Assembly (NCBI GenBank): GCA_902777325.1
Contig: CACYTH010000005.1
Coordinates: 1 to 64,000, forward strand
Reading direction: 5' to 3'
Source: an uncultured Coriobacteriaceae bacterium
GTDB taxonomy: Bacteria; Actinomycetota; Coriobacteriia; Coriobacteriales; Atopobiaceae
Length of the DNA stretch: 64,000 nucleotides
Shown: positions 8,067 through 42,028 of the stretch, one piece after another
Position numbering within the stretch: the stretch's first letter is position 1
How the letters are laid out: the number at the start of each line of letters is the position of its first letter
Notes under the pieces: model-generated
Databases searched by the model: none
Told to the model about the DNA's origin: nothing
The model's input: the letters and a program-made list of their open reading frames with translations, nothing else
Program-made: the position numbers and the translations under genes

Positions 8067-9091
8067 CGCCTGCAAGCGGATATCCCCTAAGCCCTCTCGA
8101 CCTGCGCTCTCTCGTGCGTGAGGCGGAGCTCGCGTGCGACGCGCTCGCAGGCCGTGGTCAAACGCAGGTGCGTCACGGCGACGGTGTGGTCGTTGCGATC
8201 GGCGCCTTCGACGGCGTCCACCTTGGCCATCGTGACCTCATAGCGACCTGTGTGGAAGACGCCCGCGCCCGTGACGCGTCGGCGGTGGTAGTGACCTTCG
8301 ATCCTGATCCCTCCGAGCTCCTTGCAAACATGGGGCACGAGGCACGCCTGCTTGACGTGCCCGACCGCGTCAGGCTCTGCCGGTCGCTCGACGTCGACGA
8401 CGTCCTGGTGCTGCCCTTTGACCACGAGCTGGCGGCACTCTCCCCACGCGCGTTTCTTGCGATGCTGGAGGAGCGTCTTGGGCCCCTGCGCGCCGTGCAC
8501 GTGGGGGAGAACTTCCGCTTTGGCGCCCATGGCGCAGGCGACGTGCGCACGCTCGAGGCTCTCGGACGCGACATGGGCTTCGATGCGGTGCCGCGTCCAC
8601 TCTACAGGCGGGACGGCGAGGTCGTCTCGTCGACACGCATCCGCGCCTTGCTCGCGGAGGGAAGGGTTGCCGAGGCCGCGGCACTGCTCGGCCGTTGCCA
8701 CTACGTGCGCGGCACGGTGGCGCATGGCAGGGGAGAGGGCACCTCGTTCGGCTTTCCCACGGCAAACGTGGAGTGCGACTCGCTGGTCTGCATGCCGTCC
8801 GAAGGCGTCTACGCCTGCATCGTGACCGATGGGGTCCACGCCTGGCCGGCCGCCGCAAACGTGGGCAAGCCGCCCACCTTCACGGGCGATCGCGACAGCT
8901 TCTTTCTCGAGGCAAACCTGATCGGGTTCGAGGGAGACCTCTACGGCAGCGAGCTCTCCGTGCTGTTTGTGGAGTGGCTGCGTGCCTCTCGCCCGTTCTC
9001 CTCGCTCGCTGAGCTTGAGCGGGTGGTGCTCGGCAACATAGACTGGGTACGTTGCAACATAGGTGCGGCTGGCGTGGAGGTGAGCTCGTGA
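8063..9091 (+). CDS. ribF: Bifunctional riboflavin kinase / FAD synthetase
   Basis: RibF phosphorylates riboflavin to FMN and adenylylates FMN to FAD. The product has 342 residues. The N-terminal nucleotidyltransferase domain has AIGAFDGVHLGH (45-56) and STRIRALLAEG. The C-terminal kinase domain has GRGEGTSFGFPTANV (about 222-236) and ends with WLRASRPFSSLAELE. The N-terminus is about 35 residues longer than the family core, but the ATGA overlap with truB supports this start. dnaG overlaps its end by four bases. Confidence 0.95.
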   Translation: MTPASGYPLSPLDLRSLVREAELACDALAGRGQTQVRHGDGVVVAIGAFDGVHLGHRDLIATCVEDARARDASAVVVTFDPDPSELLANMGHEARLLDVPDRVRLCRSLDVDDVLVLPFDHELAALSPRAFLAMLEERLGPLRAVHVGENFRFGAHGAGDVRTLEALGRDMGFDAVPRPLYRRDGEVVSSTRIRALLAEGRVAEAAALLGRCHYVRGTVAHGRGEGTSFGFPTANVECDSLVCMPSEGVYACIVTDGVHAWPAAANVGKPPTFTGDRDSFFLEANLIGFEGDLYGSELSVLFVEWLRASRPFSSLAELERVVLGNIDWVRCNIGAAGVEVSS

Positions 9092-37140: not shown

Positions 37141-38394
37141 GTGGCCTCCTTCAGTGCGGACGAGAAGCTCTGGCTTGAGCGTCTCCACCAGCCGTCTGCC
37201 CAGGCGCTCTACCTGCACCTGCCCTTCTGCGCGCGCAAGTGCGCCTACTGCGACTTCAGCTCGTGGGCCACAAAGCCAGAAGACCCCCTGATGGGGGACT
37301 ACGTCGACGCCCTGCGGAGGCACTTGTTCGAGGCAGAGGCCGTGGGGCTTCTGTCTTGCTGCGAGACCATCTACGTGGGTGGAGGCACGCCGAGCTTTGT
37401 CGGGACTCCCCTCGCGCAGCTCGTATGTCATGCACGTGCCATGGCCCCGCACGCGACCGAGGTCTCCTGCGAGGCAAATCCAGACTCTCTCACCAACGAC
37501 CTGCTTGGGCGGCTGCGTGATGCCGGTTGCACGCGTCTCTCGGTGGGGGTCCAGAGCCTGTCCGATGCGGAGCTTACGGAGCTTGGCAGGATTCACTCTG
37601 CCGCCCAGGCACGCGCGCGGCTGAGTGCCGCGGTCAAGGCGGGCTTCGATGTGTCTGCCGACCTCATGTGCGCCATTCCGCTTCAGACCGACGAGAGCTG
37701 GCGGGCGTCGCTTGAGGGCGTCATCGGCTGCGGGGTTGGCCATGTGAGCGTCTACCCTCTGCAGATCGAGGATGGAACACCGCTGGGGGAGCGATACGGC
37801 GCAAGCGAGCCAGCCTTCAACGATCCTGAGGTGCAGGCGCACAGGATGGAGCTCGCACGCGATCTTCTCGCGTCAGCCGGCTTTGGGCGCTACGAGGTGG
37901 CAAGCTACGCGCGCGAGGGCAAGGACTGCAGGCACAACCAGGCGTATTGGACCGCTCGGCCGTATCTGGGCCTGGGAACCGGTGCCAGCTCGATGCTCAC
38001 ACGCGAGGGCTACGAGAGTCTGCGCAAGGTTTGTCCCCAGCTCCCAGAGCCTGACGTTGGAGCGCGGCGCGTGCGTCTGACCTGCATTGACAGGCGTCAC
38101 GAGCTGGCCGCTGCCCGCTCGATGGCAGATCTCCACTTTGACCTCGAGTTTCTCAGTGAGGCTCAGGCTGCCGCCGAAGACCTCATGCTGGGCATGCGGC
38201 TCGTGTACGGCGTGGAGCCGGGGCTGGTTGATCACGCGCGTAGGGTGCTCGCCGAGTCGGAGGTCGACGAGACGCTCGCATGGTGCGAGGCACAGGGCCT
38301 CGTTGCCCGCAAAGGCCTCCGTTGGGTGCCAACGGACAGGGGATGGCTGCTCGGCAACATACTCTATGGCCGCATGTGGGACCTCGCGGACTAG
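37141..38394 (+). CDS. hemW: Radical SAM heme chaperone HemW
   Basis: HemW is a radical SAM protein related to coproporphyrinogen dehydrogenase HemN and is thought to carry heme to target proteins. The 417-residue product has ALYLHLPFCARKCAYCDFSSW with the cluster cysteines C30, C34 and C37, YVGGGTPSF, EANPDSLT, RLSVGVQS and the C-terminal HemN domain. It lacks the extra cysteine (CxxxCxxCxC) that marks true HemN, since Asp38-Phe39 follow C37. It starts at a GTG two bases after dus. The lepA-dus/hemW order is common in Gram-positive bacteria. Confidence 0.93.
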   Translation: MASFSADEKLWLERLHQPSAQALYLHLPFCARKCAYCDFSSWATKPEDPLMGDYVDALRRHLFEAEAVGLLSCCETIYVGGGTPSFVGTPLAQLVCHARAMAPHATEVSCEANPDSLTNDLLGRLRDAGCTRLSVGVQSLSDAELTELGRIHSAAQARARLSAAVKAGFDVSADLMCAIPLQTDESWRASLEGVIGCGVGHVSVYPLQIEDGTPLGERYGASEPAFNDPEVQAHRMELARDLLASAGFGRYEVASYAREGKDCRHNQAYWTARPYLGLGTGASSMLTREGYESLRKVCPQLPEPDVGARRVRLTCIDRRHELAAARSMADLHFDLEFLSEAQAAAEDLMLGMRLVYGVEPGLVDHARRVLAESEVDETLAWCEAQGLVARKGLRWVPTDRGWLLGNILYGRMWDLAD

Positions 38395-38516
38395 CCAAGC
38401 TCCGTTCACAATAGTTGTAGATTCATGTTGCGCCGAATCGAATCTGGCTGCGATGGGTACAATTTTGCCCGTATGTCTGTCGGGGCTCGGGCCCCTTGGC
38501 ACGAAAGCAGTCATCC

Positions 38517-39602
38517 ATGGCCGCAATGAACGAAAAAGACTATTACGCCATCCTGGGCGTCGAGAAGGATGCGACGAGCGAGCAGATTCGCAAGGCCTTC
38601 CAGCAGAAGGCGCGCAAGCTGCATCCTGACGTCAACAAGGAGCCGGACGCCGAGGAGCGCTTCAAGGAGGTCTCCGAGGCCTATGCCGTGCTCTCGGATG
38701 ACGACAAGCGCCGGCGCTACGACGCCATGCGCTCCGGCTCTCCCTTCGGCGGAGCCGCTGGCGGTTATGCCAGCCCCGCAGGTACGGCGGGCTACGGCTC
38801 CTACGACTCGGATCCCTTCGACTGGGGCTTCCCCTTTGGCGGGGCCTACACGAGCCGTCGCACCTCCACCACGCGCTCGCGCGCGTACAACCCCAAGGTC
38901 GGCGCGGACATCGTCTACGATGTCACGCTCGACGACGAGACGGCTGCCAAGGGCACGCGCCGCGGGATCTCGTACCAGCGCTACGCAACCTGCGACGTGT
39001 GCCACGGGCATGGCTCGGTGGAGCACACCCATGCGGTCACCTGCCCGACCTGTGGCGGGACCGGCCGCATGACGGTCGACCTCAGCAGCCTCTTCGGGTT
39101 TGGCGTGATGGAGGTCACCTGCCCCGAGTGCGAGGGGGCGGGAAGGGTCGTCGAGGATCCTTGCGACAGCTGTGGCGGGTCGGGTCGCGTGCTCACGGCG
39201 AGCGAGGTCGTCGTCGACATACCCGCTGACGTTCACGACGGCGACACGGTTCGCGTAGCCGGCATGGGAAACGCCGGCACTAACGGACAGGAGTCCGGAG
39301 ACTTCGTCTGCAGGGTCTCCCGGCCATCGGAGCGCCTGACGAGCGGCCAGAGCTGGGGATGCTGGCTCGTCGGATTCTCGTCCCCCTTCGTCGCGCTCGC
39401 CATCCTCTCGGGCAACATACTCAACGTCTCATTCATGATCTTGGGCCTGTTCGTCGTCGGTCTGGTCATGGTGTTCAAGGACGGCATCAAGACCGCCCGC
39501 GGCTGGCGCAACAACGCCATGAGGGCCTTCTTGAGCGGATTCAACAGCTGTCTGCCCTTCCTGGGCATGATGCTGATGCTGAGCATGTGCATGAGACGAT
39601 AG
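38517..39602 (+). CDS. Membrane-anchored DnaJ-like co-chaperone
   Basis: The 361-residue product has a J domain (residues 5-68 with HPD in LHPDVNKEPDAEERFKEV), a Gly/Ser/Tyr-rich linker and a full DnaJ zinc centre (CDVCHGHG at 159, CPTCGGTG at about 177, CPECEGAG at about 202, CDSCGGSG at about 217). The first part of the client-binding domain follows (VVVDIPADVHDGDTVRVAGMG). At about residue 275 homology to DnaJ stops and two or three hydrophobic segments begin (about 281-320 and 337-358). A normal DnaJ has a second soluble beta-domain there. The ATG at 38517 has no strong ribosome-binding site; the ATG at 38526 is an alternative. A TACAAT box lies at 38458. Confidence 0.85.
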   Translation: MAAMNEKDYYAILGVEKDATSEQIRKAFQQKARKLHPDVNKEPDAEERFKEVSEAYAVLSDDDKRRRYDAMRSGSPFGGAAGGYASPAGTAGYGSYDSDPFDWGFPFGGAYTSRRTSTTRSRAYNPKVGADIVYDVTLDDETAAKGTRRGISYQRYATCDVCHGHGSVEHTHAVTCPTCGGTGRMTVDLSSLFGFGVMEVTCPECEGAGRVVEDPCDSCGGSGRVLTASEVVVDIPADVHDGDTVRVAGMGNAGTNGQESGDFVCRVSRPSERLTSGQSWGCWLVGFSSPFVALAILSGNILNVSFMILGLFVVGLVMVFKDGIKTARGWRNNAMRAFLSGFNSCLPFLGMMLMLSMCMRR

Positions 39603-39648
39603 GCATGCAAGACGCTACGAGCTTTAGAACGTGTCTAGTGGGAGATGT

Positions 39649-40743
39649 GTGATCTTGGAACCAAAGCGGGACTACTACGAGGTGCTTGGCGTCGACAGGG
39701 ACGCGGATGCGAGGACCATCAAGCGGGCCTTTCTCAAGAAGGCGCGCAAGCTTCATCCAGACGTCAACAAGGAGGCAGGCGCCGAGGAGCAGTTCAAGGA
39801 GGTCAACGAGGCATATTCGGTGCTCTCCGATGAGCGGAGGCGCGCCAACTACGACCGCTACGGCGACGCCGAGGGCCCCGGTGGATTTGGTGGCGACTAC
39901 GTCGACATGTCCGACATCTTTGGTGGCGGCTTCAGCGACATCTTCGACTCCTTCTTCGGCGGTGGCCGCGCCTCCGGTGGCGCGCAGCAACGTACGCGTG
40001 GCCGTGACATGGGCATCTCCCTGCGCATCACGCTCGAGGAGGCGGCCGCTGGCTGCAAGAAGACAATCTCCTACGACCGCCTGGCCCCTTGCGACGACTG
40101 CAACGGCTCCGGCGTGGCCGAAGGTGGCCACGAGACCACCTGCTCGCGCTGCAACGGCACCGGCAGGGTGGTCGAGGTCCAGCGGACCATCTTTGGCCAG
40201 ATGCAATCGCAAAGCACCTGCCCCGTGTGCGGCGGTGTGGGCAAGGTCGTGGACAAGCCCTGCGAGACCTGCGGAGGTCAGGGTCGCGCACCAGAGCGCG
40301 AGACCGTCGAGCTCGAGATTCCTGCCGGCATCCATTCCGGTCAGACCGTTCGCGTCGAGGGCAAGGGCGAGGCGGGCATCCGCGGCGACCGCAGTGGCGA
40401 CCTCGTCGCCCGTGTGGACATCGCCGCGCACGAGCGCTACGAGCGTCAGGGAGACGACCTCTTCTGCCAGATAGAGGTTGATGCCTTCGAGGCCATGCTG
40501 GGCACGACCGTCACCATCGACGGCATCATGGATGGCGAGACGGTGGACATCGTGGTGCCGGCCGGCTGCCAGTACGGCCAGCAGGTACGTGCGGAGGGCA
40601 AGGGCATGCCGCGTATGGGCAGCACGGCTCGCGGCAGCGTGATCGCGCTGGTAGACGTGCGCGTGCCTGACGACCTCTCCGACGCGGAGCGCGCCGCCAT
40701 CGGCAAGCTCATGCGCGAGCGCGAGGTGCGCAAGCGTGGCTGA
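39649..40743 (+). CDS. dnaJ: Chaperone protein DnaJ
   Basis: DnaJ is the Hsp40 partner of DnaK: it binds unfolded proteins and stimulates ATP hydrolysis. The 364-residue product is a normal full-length DnaJ with a J domain (HPD in LHPDVNKEAGAEEQFKEV), a Gly/Phe region with FGGDYVDMSDIFGG, four zinc motifs (CDDCNGSG, CSRCNGTG, CPVCGGVG, CETCGGQG) and both C-terminal beta-domains. GGGAG at 39640-39644 points to the GTG at 39649 or the TTG at 39655 as start. It lies downstream of the membrane-anchored paralogue and overlaps mtaB by eight bases. No dnaK, grpE or hrcA is nearby. Confidence 0.94.
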   Translation: MILEPKRDYYEVLGVDRDADARTIKRAFLKKARKLHPDVNKEAGAEEQFKEVNEAYSVLSDERRRANYDRYGDAEGPGGFGGDYVDMSDIFGGGFSDIFDSFFGGGRASGGAQQRTRGRDMGISLRITLEEAAAGCKKTISYDRLAPCDDCNGSGVAEGGHETTCSRCNGTGRVVEVQRTIFGQMQSQSTCPVCGGVGKVVDKPCETCGGQGRAPERETVELEIPAGIHSGQTVRVEGKGEAGIRGDRSGDLVARVDIAAHERYERQGDDLFCQIEVDAFEAMLGTTVTIDGIMDGETVDIVVPAGCQYGQQVRAEGKGMPRMGSTARGSVIALVDVRVPDDLSDAERAAIGKLMREREVRKRG

Positions 40744-42028
40744 GGCCATGGCACGGCCACCGCGCGTGGCGCTCTCCAATCTCGGCTGCCGCGTCAACCG
40801 CGTGGAGCTTGACATGATGGCGCTCGCCTTTCAGGAGGCGGGCTGCGAGCTGACGGATATGCGCGAGGCCGACGCGGTGGTGATCAACACCTGCGCCGTC
40901 ACGGGCGAGGCCGAGGCCAAGACCCGCAAGTCCGTGCGCCATGCCGCCCATCTGCCCCAACGTCCCCTGGTCATGGCCACGGGGTGTGTCGCCAGCCTCT
41001 TTGCTGGCGAGCTTCTCGAGCTTGCGGAAAACGTGGTGGTCGAGGCTGACAAGCGCAAGGTTCCCGAGCGTGTCCTCGCCCAACTGGGGTGGGACGCCCC
41101 CTATGAGGCCATGGGCGCCAGACAGGTGCCTGCGCACGCCACGCCGACCGGCAGGACGCGTCCCGGCATCAAGATCCAAGATGGGTGTGACAACCACTGC
41201 ACCTTCTGCATCGTTTGGAAGGCGCGCGGGCGTTCGCGTTCCGTGGGGGTGGAGGGAGTCCTCGCGGAGGTGCGCGCGGCGCTTGCGCGTGGTGCCCGCG
41301 AGGTCGTGCTCACGGGCATCAACCTCGGCAACTATCGCAGCGAGACGGACGGGCACCCGATCGCGCTGCCAGGGCTCATCGAGCTTATCCTCGAGAAGAC
41401 CGACGTGGGCCGCATCCGCCTGGGCTCCATCGAGCCGCCCGACGTCACGCCAGAGCTCGTCGACGTCATGGCGCGCTCCCATGGTCGCGTGGCCCCCTTC
41501 CTTCATGTCTGCCTGCAGTCTGGCTGCGACAAGACTCTGCGCGAGATGGGCCGCGTCTACGACACCGCGCAGTACGCAAAGGTCGTTGCGGATGCCCGTG
41601 CGGCTCTTCCCGAGCTTTCCTTGGGCTGCGATCTCATCGTGGGATTCCCGGGGGAGAGCGAGCAGGACTTCGCGCAGTCGCTTGCCTTCTGCGAGCAGAT
41701 GGCCTTCTCGCGCATGCACGTGTTCCGCTACTCCCGCCGTCCGGGCACCCCGGCCGCGGCGCGCACCGACCAGGTGCCTGCCGAGACAAGCGCCGCGCGC
41801 AGCGAGCAGATGCTTCGTCTGGCCTCCCGGATGCGCGCCGGGCAGGCGCGCGCCCGCGTGGGCTCCGACGAGCTGGTGGTGGTGCAGCGCAAGGGTATGG
41901 GGGTGAGCGGAGGGCTCTTTGACGTGCTCGTGGATGACGACCTTGCCATCGACGAGCTGGTGCGTGTCCGCGTCCGTGCCGCCCAGGCGGATGGAACCCT
42001 CGACGCGCGCACATCGACTATCATCTGA
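40736..42028 (+). CDS. mtaB: tRNA threonylcarbamoyladenosine methylthiotransferase MtaB
   Basis: MtaB is a radical SAM methylthiotransferase that converts t6A37 to ms2t6A37 in tRNAs decoding ANN codons. The 430-residue product has the N-terminal cluster cysteines in SNLGCRVNRVE, INTCAVTGEAE and ATGCVAS. The radical SAM motif CDNHCTFC uses C151, C155 and C158. LGCDLIVGFPGE and a C-terminal TRAM-like region follow. The start is a GTG inside the end of dnaJ; the ATG at 40748 is an alternative. It is the first of three methylthiotransferases in the window (with rimO and miaB). Confidence 0.93.
   Translation: MAEAMARPPRVALSNLGCRVNRVELDMMALAFQEAGCELTDMREADAVVINTCAVTGEAEAKTRKSVRHAAHLPQRPLVMATGCVASLFAGELLELAENVVVEADKRKVPERVLAQLGWDAPYEAMGARQVPAHATPTGRTRPGIKIQDGCDNHCTFCIVWKARGRSRSVGVEGVLAEVRAALARGAREVVLTGINLGNYRSETDGHPIALPGLIELILEKTDVGRIRLGSIEPPDVTPELVDVMARSHGRVAPFLHVCLQSGCDKTLREMGRVYDTAQYAKVVADARAALPELSLGCDLIVGFPGESEQDFAQSLAFCEQMAFSRMHVFRYSRRPGTPAAARTDQVPAETSAARSEQMLRLASRMRAGQARARVGSDELVVVQRKGMGVSGGLFDVLVDDDLAIDELVRVRVRAAQADGTLDARTSTII

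Follow-up and report, generated by a model that had tools for sequence, protein, structure and literature searches.

The question raised by this locus is what a DnaJ that ends in membrane helices would do beside a normal one. The window analyzed here, a 64,000-nucleotide stretch of an Atopobiaceae genome, carries at 38517..39602 (+) a gene for a 361-residue, class-A-derived J-domain protein predicted to be membrane-integral, recognized from its open reading frame, Pfam, alignment, a profile search, an AlphaFold model and dN/dS. We use the label J-TM for this form of DnaJ, in which a tail of membrane helices replaces CTD2. The patterns detected are most consistent with a J-protein that is integral to the membrane, made constitutively and serves to concentrate DnaK there, i.e. 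a local, membrane-side DnaK loading site, to which we give a probability of roughly 0.6.

The protein begins with MAAMNEKDYY at an ATG that is conserved among aligned relatives, and not at an upstream TTG that would give 368 residues. A J domain with HPD, by which the protein belongs among J-domain proteins (residues 8–69, 38538..38723, +; Pfam PF00226, E 2e-25), is followed by a G/F-rich linker with the recurrent motif DPFxWGFPFGG (residues about 76–125, 38742..38891, +; from the alignment, with low pLDDT over 77–126) and by the first beta-domain, CTD1 (residues 126–270, 38892..39326, +), with an inserted zinc domain holding four CxxCxGxG motifs (159–223, DnaJ_CXXCXGXG, PF00684), as assigned from Pfam, the AlphaFold model and PDB matches to DnaJ, Ydj1 and DNAJA2. 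An earlier note on the same DNA had taken the J domain and all four zinc motifs to be intact, which Pfam confirms and which is conserved across families. It had also held that only the start of the first beta-domain is kept and that the sequence changes after about residue 275; the domain is indeed kept, but in full, since the BLASTP alignment with the downstream DnaJ (46% identity over 262 columns, residues 6–267) reaches residue 267 before it ends, and the switch to a hydrophobic tail is real but lies at about residue 270. DnaJ_C (PF01556) is matched over profile positions 1–76 of 152 only, and TIGR02349 gives 248 bits against a cut-off of 377, in a match that stops at residue 268 (profile position 255 of 354). 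Among the features of class A, the zinc domain with its four motifs inside CTD1 is present, CTD2 is absent by Pfam, by BLASTP and in all reading frames, and the C-terminal dimerization domain is absent by the end point of TIGR02349 and by the model, which has three helices in its place. That model, built with 25 sequences, contains the J domain, CTD1 and helices at 276–298, 306–321 and 328–360 with a disordered linker, and as a whole matches structures of DnaJ, DNAJA2 and Ydj1 in the PDB.

Residues 271–361 (39327..39599, +) form, by alignment, hydropathy, charge and AlphaFold, a predicted three-helix membrane domain where CTD2 and the dimerization domain would be. This replacement of CTD2 had been proposed earlier and is conserved across families, and where two or three hydrophobic segments had been counted up to the end, hydropathy (peaks at 281–299, 301–319 and 337–355) and AlphaFold both find three. 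Modelled alone, the tail is a three-helix bundle with a mean pLDDT of 90.5, although TM3 is only moderately hydrophobic (about 1.6), which counts against the reading preferred here. Tails have on average 2.4 K+R before TM1, 0.1 in the TM1–TM2 loop and 3.4 in the TM2–TM3 loop, a positive-inside bias by which the N-terminal domains should be cytoplasmic (N-in). With helices of span length by hydropathy, this charge bias and the model, J-TM would be an integral membrane protein of the predicted topology. Among J-TMs the J domain has the highest mean pairwise identity (83%), followed by CTD1b (71%) and the zinc domain (68%), with the tail at 35%. All 29 aligned proteins (L019, with masked letters, excluded) have G281, G286, P290, W330 and G341, and 26 of the 29 tails carry a Cys (C358) where TM3 ends; C358 appears invariant in some sets of rows because of row choice, these sets excluding L013, L028 and L032, which have longer tails, and one of them also L025. 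In L013, L028 and L032, which belong to the window's own genus, the tail is also more hydrophobic, with perhaps four helices, and is without the conserved Cys, a variation that likewise counts against the preferred reading.

The same form is widespread in relatives. A profile of CTD1b plus tail, searched against 296 Coriobacteriia genomes, found J-TM in 133 of them, all with best E values no worse than 1.4e-20; the genome ranked after these scored 2.0e-11, through the CTD1 of an ordinary DnaJ. In the survey, families, genomes and loci bear the handles f, G and L; f1 is Atopobiaceae, the window's family, and f10 and f2 are probably Coriobacteriaceae and Eggerthellaceae. The 133 genomes comprise 80 of 80 Atopobiaceae, 52 of 52 of f10 and one of f3 (G038). 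The fusion that the earlier note had suggested looking for in other Coriobacteriia is thus common there, and its worry that the form might be missing from relatives is answered by 33 of 60 relatives with a single 91-residue tail query and by all 80 Atopobiaceae genomes with the profile. Among 18 genomes of f3–f9 J-TM was seen only in f3 (G038 and G046), with G054 of f3, at 89% completeness, lacking it, and among 296 sampled Actinomycetota it was seen in 14, all f1 or f10. Of 157 relatives, 80 were kept. A 57-row tree has a branch, supported at 98/89, that sets all 27 J-TMs apart, and the form is, on this tree, one clade of single origin; the J-TM/DnaJ2 gene tree is unrooted, with the long branch of DnaJ1 as its sole outside row, and does not decide local duplication from DnaJ2. 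J-TM is a conserved, vertically inherited gene, and its universality in two families suggests that it serves a core function. A phage origin was rejected, with the 20 listed of 56 phage records matching only the J, zinc and CTD1 part and none of the 56 covering 80% of the query, as was a plasmid origin, there being no plasmid match for the tail.

The form is not an accident of the sequence. CTD2 of the downstream DnaJ was sought in all frames of 39270–39640, with a best E of 6.2 over 4 residues against 2e-79 for the positive control; the frameshift near 39340–39360 that had been feared would have restored CTD2 in another frame, and no frame does. By the method of Nei and Gojobori, dN/dS against the nearest relative is about 0.28 in the tail and 0.06 in the rest of J-TM; two other pairs of tails give about 0.23 and 0.09, dS being below 0.7 in all three close pairs, and three more distant tail pairs give about 0.34 to 0.62 at a dS of 0.84 or more. 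On these estimates the tail is under purifying selection. Of 94 J-TM ORFs, 84 carried both marker motifs and were scored, the other ten being set aside as cut, split or of variant motif. HPD is present in 84/84 and four zinc motifs in 83/84; hydrophobic peaks beyond CTD1 number two or more in 84/84 (three or four in 71), while the neighboring DnaJ2 ORFs (n=95) have no such peak in 71 and one in 24. The J-TM of Atopobium minutum (L078) is split into two ORFs. In G046 (f3; L156 4855–8631) J-TM occurs as a tandem pair of ORFs that are identical in their later parts, the second of which opens with the beginning of the J domain of the DnaJ after it, and this arrangement would be either a product of unequal crossing-over or an assembly fault.

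In the window, J-TM lies between a hemW-like radical SAM gene (37141..38394, +; Pfam Radical_SAM and HemN_C, synteny) and its tandem partner DnaJ2, a canonical class A DnaJ with a probable TTG start (39655..40743, +; TIGR02349 above cut-off, synteny), which is followed by an mtaB-like gene (40736..42028, +; Pfam UPF0004 and Radical_SAM, synteny). The survey took in 95 loci, the window's together with 80 named and 14 fetched ones; J-TM is present in 92, and the pair is flanked by hemW upstream and mtaB/phoH downstream. A normal DnaJ directly downstream had been noted in the window, with the suggestion to look for the same dnaJ–dnaJ pair in relatives; it occurs in 85 of the 92. HrcA intervenes in six, and in L060 the DnaJ is lost in a sequence gap. 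In the first set of 30 loci DnaJ was downstream in 28, the exceptions being L012 (HrcA intervenes) and L026. The distance from hemW to J-TM ranges from 36 bases to 4.1 kb, with gaps of 3.8–4.1 kb in some genomes, e.g. L095 and L086, and J-TM and DnaJ are close together in most loci. In G289, the smallest complete-looking genome of Atopobiaceae at 1.0 Mb, DnaJ2 ends after the zinc domain (L127 7032–7853), with no CTD2 seen in other frames, and J-TM is whole, which speaks for the preferred reading. A putative extended −10 promoter element, GGGTACAAT, whose function is read from the consensus, stands 63 bases before the J-TM start (38455..38463, +). The promoter scan took in 88 of the 92 upstream regions and saw such an element in 51, against 1.1% of shuffled regions; that none was seen in the other 37 counts against the preferred reading. 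The J-TM/DnaJ2 pair thus seems to open its own vegetative transcription unit, often with a housekeeping-like promoter, which points to constitutive expression, and CIRCE or HAIR operators before J-TM occurred only at the shuffled level. Nothing in the neighborhood supports secretion as such, the first of the roles that had been proposed.

The window's genome has one DnaK-type Hsp70, in a dnaK-grpE-dnaJ-hspR cluster on contig C9 (hspR assigned by eye), besides one short partial match to PF00012. On the window's own contig, C5, there is no PF00012 match and no HscC-type partner nearby. DnaK is therefore the sole candidate partner there, and a second Hsp70 as a private partner was rejected for this genome. 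The argument does not extend to every family, since G190 (f10) has a pair of further Hsp70-like ORFs of 568 and 747 residues far from dnaK (C1:1067658–1070869). The dnaK of the window's genome (L114 6531–8301, C9) lacks 12 highly conserved residues without a change of frame and about 23 others together with a frameshift near 8096, the rest matching the DnaK of G020 at ~92%; this damage is probably an assembly fault.

Recruitment of DnaK to the membrane, as the earlier note read the gene, is supported by this anatomy, with HPD in all scored ORFs, one Hsp70 and a predicted N-in topology, and J-TM probably recruits DnaK to the inner face of the cell membrane. In class A J-proteins, CTD1 and the zinc domain hold clients (PMC13254874, PMC12799103). 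J-TM keeps these parts together with the J domain, which fires DnaK, and drops CTD2 and the dimer domain, so that local DnaK loading is the simplest reading. An ancient class A DnaJ paralogue would have been turned into an integral membrane protein, with the J domain, linker, zinc domain and CTD1 on the cytoplasmic side, and three helices in the membrane, joined by a neutral hairpin on the outer side and by a positively charged loop with a Trp on the inner. The clients would be membrane or exported proteins, whose unfolded cytoplasmic stretches would be captured at the membrane face by CTD1 and the zinc domain; the HPD loop would trigger ATP hydrolysis by DnaK, which would close on the client at the membrane, and GrpE would then free the client. 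Without CTD2 and the dimerization domain J-TM should be a monomer, or oligomerized through its membrane helices, which would favor local capture over the two-handed holding of DnaJ2, alongside which it would be made constitutively from its own promoter.

The alternative that survives best, possible but doubtful, is a dedicated partner: a single membrane machine (SecYEG/YidC, FtsH or a cell-wall complex) would be the docking site of the three-helix domain, and DnaK would be brought there only. Sec63 plays a role of this kind at the translocon, and neither Sec63 nor Pam18 is known to have CTD1 or a zinc domain. Pam18, which brings Hsp70 to the translocon, is a model for such a reading (PMC12953747). 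There are three helices and not one, they form a well-folded bundle in the model, and their invariant W330, G341, G281, G286 and P290, with Cys in 26/29 tails, exceed the needs of a plain anchor and so hint at a specific partner. However, no gene for a membrane machine is linked, the neighbors being hemW, dnaJ, mtaB and phoH; the tail diverges fast, at 35% mean identity; and CTD1 and the zinc domain, not known from Sec63 and Pam18, are under strong constraint in J-TM. The tail itself has no recognizable relative to name a partner in searches of Pfam, the PDB, Foldseek and plasmids, which also counts against the preferred reading. Pfam on 28 members matched DnaJ_C in 28/28 and otherwise gave scattered weak matches (best 0.0013, in 1/28), a holin match reached E 0.008 to 0.012 in 1/28, PDB sequences gave nothing better than 0.23, structure searches gave at best a Foldseek E of 6.7 and a VIA Z of 3.9, and plasmids gave no match. 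With weak, scattered matches only, no named fold or family was assigned to the tail. Local loading of DnaK at the membrane remains the preferred reading.

A pattern absent from the earlier note concerns hrcA, which either lies next to J-TM or has J-TM in its position. HrcA is missing from the window's genome. HrcA is found in 153 of 296 Coriobacteriia genomes, i.e. in 5 of 133 with J-TM versus 148 of 163 without it. The genomes with both are G028, G035, G147, G238 and G324, with the named locus L074 as a sixth case, and the gene order where both occur is hemW-JTM-hrcA-dnaJ (the contig of G035 ends inside J-TM), compared with hemW-hrcA-dnaJ in two HrcA-only outgroups and hemW-dnaJ in one f6 genome. 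CIRCE sites, counted in 23 genomes with up to 3 mismatches, number 2 to 7 in each HrcA-only outgroup (5/5 genomes) and exactly one, adjoining groES, in each genome with J-TM and HrcA (5/5); of J-TM-only genomes 11/13 are without a site and the other two carry a single 3-mismatch site each, which the reversed control pattern reaches as well. At the J-TM operon CIRCE was not seen, not even in genomes that retain HrcA, in contrast to the two outgroup hrcA operons, each of which has one. In a tree of eight joined proteins, drawn from its midpoint with SH-aLRT as its support, the HrcA-bearing J-TM rows L074, L115, L117, L118 and L119 group with the HrcA-less L127, and f10 and core Atopobiaceae lie outside, which argues for several HrcA losses after J-TM arose. 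When the tree is rooted on its outgroup rows, HrcA appears to have been lost at least three times inside the J-TM clade. Genomes of f6 and f7 have neither gene, so that HrcA can be lost without J-TM. J-TM and the loss of HrcA are linked in history, though not necessarily as cause and effect. The hemW-JTM-hrcA-dnaJ intermediates allow the loss of a textbook heat-shock repressor circuit to be followed step by step.

It is conceivable, though improbable, that J-TM is a regulatory substitute for HrcA, sensing membrane damage, drawing DnaK toward the membrane and thereby freeing heat-shock genes under HspR or other control, so that HrcA and CIRCE would become superfluous. The insertion exactly between hemW and hrcA, the skewed occurrence of HrcA (5/133 against 148/163), its losses in f10, core Atopobiaceae, G289 and f3, the disappearance of CIRCE along with it and the presence of an hspR-like gene would all fit, but J-TM and HrcA occur together in six loci, f6 and f7 have lost HrcA without J-TM, one gain and a few losses make a small number of events, and at groES or dnaK of the window's genome there is no canonical HAIR or CIRCE, HAIR being judged by closeness to its consensus. 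A broader version would have J-TM found a membrane-integral branch of class A, its arrival upstream of hrcA cutting the dnaJ operon from CIRCE, control moving to titration of DnaK on the membrane side, and HrcA then being lost several times; this sequence of events we consider just as improbable.

Compared with local DnaK loading, it is very improbable that J-TM is a generic tether of DnaK, with selection mainly on the J domain and linker and without binding clients itself: at 83% no part is more conserved than the J domain, but the zinc domain (68%) and CTD1b (71%) are nearly as conserved, and four zinc motifs are kept in 83/84. The chance that J-TM is a frameshift, a misassembly or a decaying pseudogene is negligible, even in an assembly with at least one damaged gene (dnaK), given that 133/296 genomes have the same form, that CTD2 is encoded in no frame and that selection on the tail is purifying.

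Like bacterial class A DnaJ (TIGR02349), J-TM has an N-terminal J domain with HPD, a G/F linker, CTD1 and four zinc motifs, but it lacks CTD2, the dimerization domain and the C-terminal extension and has three predicted membrane helices instead. DjlA of E. coli is likewise a membrane-bound J-protein, but it differs in having an N-terminal membrane segment and a C-terminal J domain, and it is not known to have a zinc domain. DjlA works with DnaK (PMC8215388). E. coli DjlB and DjlC, tail-anchored class C J-proteins of the plasma membrane that serve HscC, resemble J-TM in combining a J domain with a C-terminal membrane anchor, but theirs is a single anchor and they share only the J domain with DnaJ (PMC8215388). 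J-TM has three helices and, by Pfam, shares with DnaJ the zinc domain and CTD1 as well, and the window's genome offers DnaK only. Xdj1 is a class A J-protein of yeast. Acting on hydrophobic precursors at the TOM complex, where it binds Tom22 through its substrate domain, Xdj1 is a DnaJ-like J-protein at work at a membrane, but it is cytosolic and mitochondria-associated, and the passages on it in PMC12953747 name no three-helix membrane domain. Actinobacterial DnaJ2 and DnaJ2B go back to a duplication of dnaJ at the stem of Actinobacteria, followed by domain loss in some lineages; the zinc domain is what DnaJ2B lost, whereas J-TM keeps it and loses CTD2 (PMC12799103, in which the word "membrane" occurs 0 times). 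In searches of the open-licence PMC literature we found no account of a DnaJ that has the zinc domain but whose CTD2 has given way to a membrane domain. J-TM would be a general DnaJ turned membrane protein while retaining its zinc and client-binding module, a combination not foreseen by the class A/B/C scheme. It is found throughout two families of bacteria that are common in gut and rumen.
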